34,342 nucleotides of DNA. It comes from Phycisphaerales bacterium. Its GTDB lineage: Bacteria > Planctomycetota > Phycisphaerae > Phycisphaerales > UBA1924. Of this stretch, positions 1,329 to 10,436 are shown piece by piece. The notes below the pieces were generated by a model. That model had not been told where the DNA came from, did not search any database, and worked only from the letters and a program-made list of their open reading frames with translations. The DNA lies in contig RECZ01000094.1 in assembly GCA_007693765.1 (NCBI GenBank), forward strand, positions 1-34,342. Reading direction: 5' to 3'. The stretch's first letter is position 1. Each line of letters starts with the position of its first letter. A program made the translations under genes and the position numbers.

Positions 1329-1362
1329 AAAAAGCACACGACGCCGACCGGGGCCGGCGTCG
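1329..1362 (-). terminator. Attenuator terminator in the hisG leader
   Basis: On the minus strand a 9-bp stem (arms 1362-1354 and 1347-1339, one G-U pair, 6-nt loop) is followed within 5 nt by five T residues at 1333-1329. It lies between the leader peptide stop and the hisG start, about 87 nt before hisG. It is therefore not the end of an upstream gene transcript but a leader terminator. The 5' arm can instead pair with a segment just after the leader stop codon. Confidence 0.8.
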
Positions 1363-1407
1363 CTGATGGTGGGGTTGGATACGTTCAGTACCCGCAGCGC
1401 GGCCGGC
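1353..1407 (-). promoter_or_regulatory. Antiterminator pairing segments of the his attenuator
   Basis: Segment 2 (1407-1395, GCCGGCCGCGCTG), directly after the leader stop codon, can pair with segment 3 (1365-1353, CAGCGACGCCGGC). This gives a 6-bp and a 5-bp helix around a 2x2 internal mismatch. Segment 3 contains the 5' arm of the terminator, so the two structures exclude each other. A further GCCGGC copy inside the leader peptide gene (codons 8-9) can pair with segment 2 as the 1:2 protector helix. This was worked out by eye; no folding program was run. Confidence 0.7.
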
Positions 1408-1461
1408 TCACCGATGGCGGTGATGATGGTGCAGGCCGGCGTGGCGGGGGGTGGGGTTCAT
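1408..1461 (-). CDS. hisL: His operon leader peptide (His-rich)
   Basis: An 18-codon frame, ATG at 1461 to TGA at 1408, encodes MNPTPRHAGLHHHHRHR: six His in 17 residues, with five of the six in residues 11-16. It lies between a candidate promoter and a terminator upstream of hisG, on the same strand. By analogy with the enteric his leader, a ribosome stalled at the His codons when charged tRNA-His is scarce would cover segment 1 and free segment 2 to pair with segment 3, preventing termination. A ribosome that reaches the stop codon would cover segment 2 and allow the terminator. No Shine-Dalgarno is visible, and the predicted transcript start lies only a few nt upstream, so translation may be leaderless. 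The symbol is assigned by function, not by sequence similarity to enteric HisL. Confidence 0.8.
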   Translation of the reverse strand: MNPTPRHAGLHHHHRHR

Positions 1462-1471
1462 AGTCGGGGGG

Positions 1472-1499
1472 AGTATTGCCTGATTTGGGCGGTGGTCAA
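1472..1499 (-). promoter_or_regulatory. Candidate sigma-70 promoter of the his operon
   Basis: Minus-strand TTGACC (1499-1494), a 16-nt spacer, and AATACT (1477-1472). The -35 box matches 5 of 6 consensus bases and the -10 box 4 of 6. Transcription would begin near 1465, immediately before the leader peptide ATG at 1461, which is the right place for an attenuator leader. Confidence 0.55.
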
Positions 1500-7919: not shown

Positions 7920-9416
7920 TCAGGCCATGCTGTGCTTGGCGCCGGGCTGCATGAGAGCATCGACATCGATGCCGAGCTTGGTGGCCACGCGCCGGCCGTA
8001 GTCCTCGTCGGCGCGGAAGAAGTGGCAGAGCTGAAGCATCTGCACTTCGTTGCGGGCCTGGCCCAGCACGCCGGCGATGCGCGTCGCGAGGCGGTCGCGG
8101 TGATCGTCGTCGAACATGCGGTAGAGGTTGCCGGCCTGGGTGTAGTCGTCGTGATCAACGGTGGAGTCGAAGCGGTCGACGACGGCCTGCCCAAGGTCCC
8201 ACGCGGGGTCGCTGTAGCGCTCGTCGGGCATGGGGGCGCCCTCGCGGGTGTTGGGCCAGTAGTTGGGCTTGGCGCCGTAGTCGGCGGCGGTCGCCATGTG
8301 GCCGTCGCGCTGGTAGTGCATGACGGGGCAGCGGGGCTTGTTGACGGGGAGCTGCTGGAAGTTGTTGCCGACGCGGTGGCGGTGGGCATCGGCGTAGGAC
8401 ATGAGGCGGGCCTGCAGCATTTTGTCGGGGCTGGGCCCGATGCCGGGCACGAGCGCCGAGGGGCTGAACGAGGACTGCTCGACCTCGGCGTGGTAGTTCT
8501 CGGGGTTGCGGTTGAGCTCGAGCGTGCCGACCTCGATGAGCGGGAAGTCGGCGTGGGGCCAGACCTTGGTGAGGTCGAAGGGGTTCCACTTGAACGACTC
8601 GGCCTGCTTCTGCGTCATCACCTGGATGCAGAAGCGCCATTGGGGGTAGTCGCCCTTCTCGATGGCCTCGAAGAGGTCGCGCTGGTGGCTCTCGCGGTCG
8701 GCGCCGACGAGCGCCGCGGCCTCGTCGTCCATCAGGTTCTTGATGCCCTGTTTGGTCTTGAAGTGGAACTTGCACCACACGCGCTCGCCCTTGTCGTTGA
8801 TGAGCGAGTAGGTGTGACTGCCGTAGCCGTTGATGTTGCGGTAGGAGGCGGGGAGGCCGCGGTCACTGAAGAGGATGGTCACCTGGTGGAGCGACTCGGG
8901 GCACTGGCTCCAGAAGTCCCACTGCATGTCCATGTCGCGCAGGTTGGATTTGGGGTCGCGCTTCTGCGTGTGGATGAACATCTGGAACTTGTAGGGATCG
9001 CGCACGAAGAACACGGGGGTGTTGTTGCCCACCATGTCCCAGTTGCCCTCCTCGGTGTAGAACTTGAGAGCGAAGCCGCGCACATCGCGCTCCGCGTCGG
9101 CGGCGCCGCGCTCGCCGGCGACGGTGGAGAAGCGCAGGAAGACGTCCGTCTTCTTGCCGACCTTGCTCAGGAACGCGGCCTTGGTGTATTTCGTGACGTC
9201 GTTGGTGACGGTGAACGTGCCGTGCGCGGCGGAGCCCTTGGCGTGGACGACGCGCTCGGGGATGCGCTCGCGGTTGAAGTGCTGCATCTGCTCGAGGAGC
9301 TGGACGTCCTGCATGAGCAGCGGGCCGCGGGGGCCGGCGGTGAGGGCCTGTTGGCGGGCGATGGGGGCGCCGTCGGCGGTGGTCAGGACGGGGCATTTTT
9401 TGCTGTTGTCGGGCAT
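7920..9416 (-). CDS. katA: Monofunctional haem catalase (small-subunit, clade 3)
   Basis: 498 residues. It breaks down hydrogen peroxide to water and oxygen. The catalytic His58 lies in ERVVHAKGSAAHGTF, the distal Asn in EGNWDMVGNNTPVFF, and the proximal haem-ligand Tyr in ARLMSYADAHRHRVG. The length and absence of a C-terminal flavodoxin-like domain place it among small-subunit catalases that usually bind NADPH. There is no signal peptide, so it is cytoplasmic. AAGGAG stands 8 nt before the ATG. It is divergent from oxyR across a 102-nt gap with overlapping promoters, the classic arrangement for peroxide-induced control. A strong terminator follows. Confidence 0.96.
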   Translation of the reverse strand: MPDNSKKCPVLTTADGAPIARQQALTAGPRGPLLMQDVQLLEQMQHFNRERIPERVVHAKGSAAHGTFTVTNDVTKYTKAAFLSKVGKKTDVFLRFSTVAGERGAADAERDVRGFALKFYTEEGNWDMVGNNTPVFFVRDPYKFQMFIHTQKRDPKSNLRDMDMQWDFWSQCPESLHQVTILFSDRGLPASYRNINGYGSHTYSLINDKGERVWCKFHFKTKQGIKNLMDDEAAALVGADRESHQRDLFEAIEKGDYPQWRFCIQVMTQKQAESFKWNPFDLTKVWPHADFPLIEVGTLELNRNPENYHAEVEQSSFSPSALVPGIGPSPDKMLQARLMSYADAHRHRVGNNFQQLPVNKPRCPVMHYQRDGHMATAADYGAKPNYWPNTREGAPMPDERYSDPAWDLGQAVVDRFDSTVDHDDYTQAGNLYRMFDDDHRDRLATRIAGVLGQARNEVQMLQLCHFFRADEDYGRRVATKLGIDVDALMQPGAKHSMA

Positions 9417-9518: not shown

Positions 9519-10436
9519 ATGGAGCTGCACCAACTCCGGTATTTCGTGGCGGCGGCGGAGGCGGGCTCGATCAGCCGCGCAGCGCAGCGGTGCGGCGTGG
9601 CGCAGCCCTCGCTCAGCCAGCAGATCCGGCGGCTTGAGGAGTCGCTGGGCGTGCGGCTCTTCGACCGTCTGGGGCGCGGCGTGGCGCTGACGGACGAGGG
9701 CCGGGCGCTCGTGCCGCGGGCGCGACGGATCCTCGGCGAGGTGCGCGAGGCGGAGATGCTGGTTCGCTCGGAGGACGGCGAGGGCGCGGGTCGGCTGTCG
9801 GTGGGGGCGATCCCGACGATCGCGCCGTACCTGCTGCCGGGGCCGCTGGCGCGGCTGCTGGCGGATCACCCCGGGTGCGATGTTTCGGTGCGGGAGGATT
9901 ACACGGAGCGCCTGCTCGAACGCCTCGCCGACACGGAGATCGATGTCGCGATCGTGAGCACGCCCGTCGAGCATGATTTGATCGAGACAGAGGTGATCGG
10001 CGACGAGGCGCTGCTGGTGGTGACGCCGGTCGGCCACCCGTTCGCGGCGGGGAACGGCGTGTCGCTGGCGGCGCTGCGCAGCGAGCCGACGATCGCGCTG
10101 CACGAGATGCACTGTCTGGGCAGACAGATCAGCGGGTTCTGCGCCGTGAAGCGGATCGCGCCCAAGGTGGTGTGCCACGCGGCGCAGCTCTCGACGCTGC
10201 TGGAGTTCGTGCGGCTGGGAATGGGTGTGTCGCTGGTTCCCGAGATGGCGTCGCGCGCCGACGCGTCACGCGAGCGTGTGTACCTGCCGGTGCTCCGCGG
10301 CGGGCCGCGCCGAGAGATCGCGCTGGCGTGGCGATCGGGGCGCACGAAGCCGGCGATGGCGCGTCGTTTGGCGGCGTTCGTGCGTCAGGAGCTCGAGACG
10401 CCGGCGACGCGGCCGCGAACAACTGTGAACATATGA
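9519..10436 (+). CDS. oxyR: Hydrogen peroxide-sensing LysR-family regulator OxyR
   Basis: 305 residues. An N-terminal winged helix-turn-helix (residues 1-60, MELHQLRYFVAAAEAGSISRAA...SQQIRRLEE) precedes a two-lobe regulatory domain. The segment HEMHCLGRQISGFC places Cys at 199 and 208, exactly the spacing and numbering of the redox pair in E. coli OxyR. This supports a true peroxide sensor rather than a generic LysR protein. Oxidation should form the 199-208 disulfide and activate the divergent catalase gene. AGGAG stands 10 nt before the ATG. The gene ends 10 nt before a good promoter for the next lipoprotein gene, so it is probably transcribed alone. Confidence 0.93.
   Translation: MELHQLRYFVAAAEAGSISRAAQRCGVAQPSLSQQIRRLEESLGVRLFDRLGRGVALTDEGRALVPRARRILGEVREAEMLVRSEDGEGAGRLSVGAIPTIAPYLLPGPLARLLADHPGCDVSVREDYTERLLERLADTEIDVAIVSTPVEHDLIETEVIGDEALLVVTPVGHPFAAGNGVSLAALRSEPTIALHEMHCLGRQISGFCAVKRIAPKVVCHAAQLSTLLEFVRLGMGVSLVPEMASRADASRERVYLPVLRGGPRREIALAWRSGRTKPAMARRLAAFVRQELETPATRPRTTVNI

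Follow-up and report, generated by a model that had tools for sequence, protein, structure and literature searches.

The closest described counterpart of the locus reported here is the his attenuator of enteric bacteria (hisL of E. coli and Salmonella, Rfam family RF00514), in which a leader ORF with His codons lies before hisG and an antiterminator and a terminator form in a mutually exclusive manner. Candidate his attenuators with His-run leader peptides and predicted terminators and antiterminators were found in Firmicutes by comparative genomics (PMC9413887; leaders of hisS and hisZ in PMC2965389). Leaderless leader peptides are already known as well, and this feature is not new in itself: the transcripts of trpL in Sinorhizobium meliloti (PMC7298713) and of leuL, trpL, ilvL and thrL in Streptomyces lividans (PMC8079986) begin at the leader ATG and follow attenuation logic. 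The literature matches report his leader peptides from Proteobacteria and Firmicutes; from Actinobacteria they report leader peptides. A his leader peptide in Planctomycetota is described in none of these open-licence papers, whose silence is not proof, and the initial annotation knew of no description from Phycisphaerae; the word stem planctomyc is absent from PMC9413887 and PMC2965389.

We analyzed a stretch of planctomycete DNA of 34,342 nucleotides (the window; host genome of 2.9 Mb). Public collections mostly assign the members of its family to Phycisphaerales. Its hisG gene is preceded, as in the enteric system, by a leader ORF with His codons and by an antiterminator and a terminator that would exclude each other. 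In contrast to the enteric system, the RNA comes from another phylum, belongs to a long-form HisG, is predicted to be leaderless and has a compact 2:3 and 3:4 layout, which contains a CGCCGGC core as well as a middle hairpin. The Firmicutes candidates differ from it in phylum and, in PMC2965389, in their target genes, and the Sinorhizobium and Streptomyces leaders in both amino acid and phylum. A search with RF00514, which the initial annotation had proposed, does not recognize the RNA of the window (no match even at E 5). Across the 163 genomes of the window's family no match exceeded the cut-off, and an E. coli positive control was detected. A single weak match (G033, L167) was rejected: it marks the end of a gene, no His-rich ORF accompanies it, and no hisG follows downstream. 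The window and the loci of 20 relatives were matched neither by RF00514 nor by any other Rfam family, including the T-box models, and do not qualify as T-box riboswitches.

Layout of the hisG leader in the window

All parts of the locus lie on the minus strand. The hisG gene (361–1242) encodes the long form with a C-terminal regulatory domain (PF01634, PF08029, TIGR00070 and TIGR03455 above cut-offs), and its ATG at 1242 is preceded by a Shine-Dalgarno-like AGGAAGG (1258–1252). Together with hisC, which begins 19 nt after hisG, it forms an operon; hisC is cut by the contig end (1–341), and this short fragment matches TIGR01141 (E 2.6e-12) and no Pfam family. Elsewhere in the window, a catalase-like gene (7920–9416, minus strand) is divergent from a gene for a LysR-type regulator (9519–10436, plus strand), which looks like an oxidative-stress pair from its sequence.

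Upstream of hisG, a sigma-70-like promoter (1472–1499) comprises a -35 box TTGACC (1499–1494), a 16-nt spacer and a -10 box AATACT (1477–1472). It is one of three in a consensus scan of 20 kb, where 0.6 would be expected, and predicts a transcription start at about 1465–1461. The leader ORF MNPTPRHAGLHHHHRHR extends from the ATG at 1461 to the TGA at 1408 and comprises 17 residues and a stop codon (18 codons), with six His, four of them consecutive (CAC CAT CAT CAC). A leader with four or more His among eight codons arose in 0.2% of dinucleotide shuffles of this upstream region. A protector-like hairpin, TCACCG-CCAT-CGGTGA (1408–1423), is predicted to form between the final His codons and the stop region.

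Segment 2, GCCGGCCGCGCTG (1395–1407), begins immediately 3' of the leader stop codon and is separated from segment 3, CAGCGACGCCGGC (1353–1365), by a predicted middle hairpin, GGGTAC-TGAAC-GTATCC (1377–1393). Segment 3 is common to both alternative structures. Its pairing with segment 2 forms the antiterminator, with 6+5 base pairs and an internal loop of 2 nt on each side (11 of 13 positions). Its pairing with segment 4 forms the putative intrinsic terminator (1338–1363), a hairpin with 11 base pairs, a 4-nt loop and a predicted energy of -19.9 kcal/mol, followed four bases past the stem by a T5 run (1329–1333). Among the seven terminator-like sites of the 20-kb scan it has the longest stem and the highest G+C content; the count itself (7 found, 6.3 expected) is not above chance. 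The promoter, the 18-codon leader with its six His codons, segments 2 and 3 with their 11 pairs, the terminator, the T5 run and hisG were thus all present where the initial annotation had placed them.

Conservation of the leader and its RNA pairings

We gathered HisG homologues from each of the 163 genomes in the window's family and from 80 loci of a genome-contig collection. With 450 nt of sequence available upstream of hisG, we counted as a leader any short ORF in which four or more codons out of eight specify His. Such an ORF precedes hisG in 103 of 139 distinct loci compared with 0.46% of dinucleotide shuffles. The excess is particular to His, with nothing comparable for other amino acids in short ORFs upstream of hisG at the 139 loci, and a control region 1 kb upstream contained a His-rich leader in 0 of 131 cases. 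Within the family, hisG was present in 86 of the 163 genomes (protein search or PF01634 search); 85 loci were fetched, 83 had enough upstream sequence, and 76 of these 83 carry the leader. The attenuation reading of the initial annotation, for which the lack of a His run and stems in related genomes would have counted as refutation, is supported by this test: His run and terminator are kept in these 76 testable genomes and recur in other planctomycete families and other phyla. By the same protein or PF01634 searches, hisG was not found in 77 family genomes, many of them more than 90% complete, and from these gene contents histidine auxotrophy may be common in the family.

The seven family loci below the criterion are not uniform. 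One (L119) has HHH. Four, all from one genus (L008, L013, L015 and L021; g33), keep promoter, ORF, segment 2 and terminator with few His codons, as in MTKALHQLQHCMKPLASGECR; judged by their sequences, these leaders represent a natural variant of the switch with a decayed His run. In L164 the leader is poor, and L166 lacks one; a terminator-like hairpin is present at each of the two loci. The leaders have a median length of 20 residues and contain 4 to 9 His, and outside the His run the peptide is very variable among relatives. The run is no simple DNA repeat, since neighbouring His codons combine CAC with CAT in 206 of 387 cases. CAT accounts for 53% of the His codons in 104 leader ORFs and for 17% in hisG genes; a pairing constraint or slower decoding is a possible source of this excess.

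In the alignment of the terminator stem, 96.4% of the cells are paired and six of nine pairs show changes on both sides, a count that, like that for segments 2 and 3, ignores the relatedness of the sequences. This pairing was reached by 0 of 500 shuffles and exceeds that of all slid registers. At least four T follow within 12 nt of the hairpin in 91 of 104 relatives, with imperfect T runs in many. For segments 2 and 3, only 76% of the cells pair in one rigid alignment, in which the both-side changes and the covariation score nevertheless both exceed all 500 shuffles. In an alignment-free test, the two segments of one sequence matched each other better than segments exchanged between sequences (0 of 5000 permutations, relatedness again ignored). 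In L153, L160 and L150, segment 3 has changed from GCCGGC to GCCGAC, and segments 2 and 4 change accordingly. At 101 loci, the complementarity between the His-run region and the stop region is above that of shuffles, matching the protector-like hairpin, and the spacer from the stop codon to the terminator folds better than shuffles (mean z -1.2). The comparison of related hisG leaders, which the initial annotation had advised as a search for compensatory changes, gave strong covariation for 3:4 and better matching of own partners for 2:3.

A feature that the initial annotation did not mention is the apparent lack of an untranslated region before the leader. At 104 loci, TAxxxT-like hexamers show a sharp peak with their first base in positions -16 to -13, counted from the start codon of the leader; elsewhere upstream of the leader such hexamers are rare. 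A -10 box usually lies 6–7 nt from the transcription start; the transcript therefore appears to begin at or just before the start codon. A Shine-Dalgarno-like motif precedes 6 of 101 leader starts, below the background of 12%, and 86 of 101 hisG starts (accepting any candidate hisG start). The close -10 box and the missing Shine-Dalgarno motif, both read from sequence, suggest that the leader is probably translated from a leaderless transcript. The same -10 box was not seen at the Gemmatimonadota leaders.

Distribution and related leaders

A covariance model, R1, was built from 67 loci. Within the family it finds the element upstream of hisG, also in genomes whose leader ORF falls short of the threshold. 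In a sample of 294 genomes spread over the phylum, it gave nine strong matches, which come from seven other families and each have a HisG match downstream; eight have a His-run leader and the ninth (L182) a leader with more dispersed His. The leader ORF also occurs at loci labelled Acidobacteriota, Gemmatimonadota, Armatimonadota, Chloroflexota, Spirochaetota, Sumerlaeota and Actinomycetota and at some Pseudomonadota loci, and is absent from Myxococcota and most Pseudomonadota among the HisG homologues examined. The labels are those of metagenome bins and the loci were picked by HisG similarity, which gives presence, not frequency. The HisG tree has poorly supported deep branches and requires at least 14 changes of leader state; it does not discriminate between an ancient, a transferred and a repeatedly gained module, and the independent evolution suggested by the initial annotation is one possible history.

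Most secondary R1 matches are ordinary gene-end terminators (L186, L187, L190–L194, L196, L199–L201), and the hairpin-plus-T form of the window's terminator ends ordinary genes in the family, its own genome included. At L199 (own genome, C112:12534–12654), L186 and L187, gene-end hairpins of the same shape are followed by GTTCTTTTT or GTTGCTTTTT. Several genes ending in such hairpins encode proteins with an Arg-rich, PEP-CTERM-like tail.

The secondary R1 matches with Thr-run leaders (for example MNQNITTTTTTTTTATSPD and MPRPTTTTTTTTETRPRG) all precede thrS, the gene of threonyl-tRNA synthetase. Of the 49 family genomes examined, 27 carry such leaders before thrS (raw count, by a criterion of four Thr in eight codons). 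Many have a TAxxxT-like box near the ATG, and a CCGG hairpin is followed by T. Thr-run leader, hairpin and T run were found before thrS at L183, L188, L195, L197, L202, L203–L204, L207–L212, L215–L216, L218, L221–L222, L225, L227–L228, L230–L232, L267, L271, L273–L275 and L281. The thrS gene of the window's own genome (L263) has no Thr leader. From their layout, which is that of the his leader, we regard them as a candidate threonine attenuator. One Streptomyces leader likewise precedes thrS, but has two Thr and an unclear terminator (PMC8079986), whereas the family leaders have Thr runs and a hairpin with a T run. Trp-rich leaders upstream of trpE were rejected as candidates: at least two Trp in a short ORF occurred in only three of about 23 readable loci, with no consistent pattern.

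Predicted folds, proposed mechanism and alternatives

Folding of the window RNA in both states, as the initial annotation had recommended, agreed with an attenuator. We simulated a ribosome stalled at His11, the first His of the run, with its leading edge 13 nt further on. Here the antiterminator is the predicted fold (-39.1 kcal/mol compared with -34.1 kcal/mol for the terminator state). With the ribosome at the stop codon, the terminator is the predicted fold (-27.8 kcal/mol). For stalls at His12 to His14, the antiterminator folds until segment 4 is made, after which the full-length equilibrium favours the terminator; kinetics therefore matter, and the antiterminator must form first at these positions. 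The fold without a ribosome is ambiguous, the antiterminator being the minimum-energy structure and the terminator the centroid.

Based on the parts seen in the sequence, their conservation, the 3:4 covariation, the 2:3 matching and the predicted folds, we propose that a ribosome-mediated transcription attenuator upstream of hisG senses charged tRNA-His, a reading to which we assign a probability of about 0.9. A short ORF contains a run of codons for the operon's amino acid, sequence and covariation predict an intrinsic terminator between this ORF and hisG, and sequence matching and predicted folds point to an alternative antiterminator that would exclude it. In the proposed mechanism, RNA polymerase would start at the leader ATG or no more than some four bases away from it, and the transcript from which the leader is translated would be leaderless or nearly so. 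When charged tRNA-His is scarce, the ribosome would stall on CAC-CAT-CAT-CAC and leave segment 2 free to pair with segment 3, enclosing the middle hairpin. This pairing would prevent the terminator, and hisG-hisC would be transcribed. When charged tRNA-His is plentiful, the ribosome would reach the stop codon and cover segment 2; the 3:4 terminator would then form and transcription would stop at the T run. From sequence we thus infer the transcription start, leaderless initiation, stalling, termination and the response to histidine.

Points against attenuation are the T run of the window, which is short (T5) and lies four bases from the stem, the equilibrium folds for stalls at His12 to His14, the ambiguous fold without a ribosome, pair counts and 2:3 permutations that ignore relatedness, and the family loci with few His codons (four, in one genus) or with a poor or missing leader (L164 and L166). 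Stalling on the same sensor could instead control Rho-dependent termination or translation of hisG, with no intrinsic terminator involved. The imperfect T runs of many relatives would suit this arrangement, but the hairpin stem and the T-rich tract after it are conserved, and the same form ends ordinary genes. In the window, moreover, some 95 nt separate the end of the hairpin from the hisG start, which leaves the ribosome-binding site uncovered, and we consider such control improbable.

Both remaining explanations are far less probable still. His-rich peptides can bind metals, and the leader might encode a functional small protein, such as a metal binder, whose place before hisG is incidental. 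Against this, the peptide varies greatly outside the His run, the run lies just before the stop codon and faces complementary RNA segments, the strong R1 matches read outside the family all precede hisG, and the Thr-run analogues precede thrS. A chance coincidence of a His-rich short ORF with a GC-rich hairpin could appeal to the many hairpins of GC-rich DNA and to the unremarkable number of terminator-like sites in 20 kb; it is refuted by the conservation of the leader far above the shuffled expectation, with the covariation also against it, and we give it equally negligible weight.

The attenuator reading leads to a wider view, towards which we lean with some reserve: a his attenuator of the leaderless type, whose RNA sequence is not related to that of the enteric system, would be an old or horizontally spread module attached to a long-form lineage of hisG that Planctomycetota share with several other phyla. 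In the window's family it would be one of a larger group of leader-peptide attenuators on leaderless transcripts, the Thr-run leaders before thrS among them. This is apparently the first record for Planctomycetota of the classical his attenuation mechanism, built on a separate RNA outside RF00514; for the several other phyla with such leader sequences, we found no earlier description in the open-licence literature. With it, Planctomycetota and, judged by sequence, several more phyla are added to the groups for which the open-licence papers describe leader-peptide attenuation (Proteobacteria, Actinobacteria and Firmicutes), and R1 is now available to find the planctomycete his attenuator. The natural variants with worn-down His runs offer a way to study the loss of the switch. 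For these bacteria, the attenuator would imply coupled transcription and translation as well as functional leaderless initiation.
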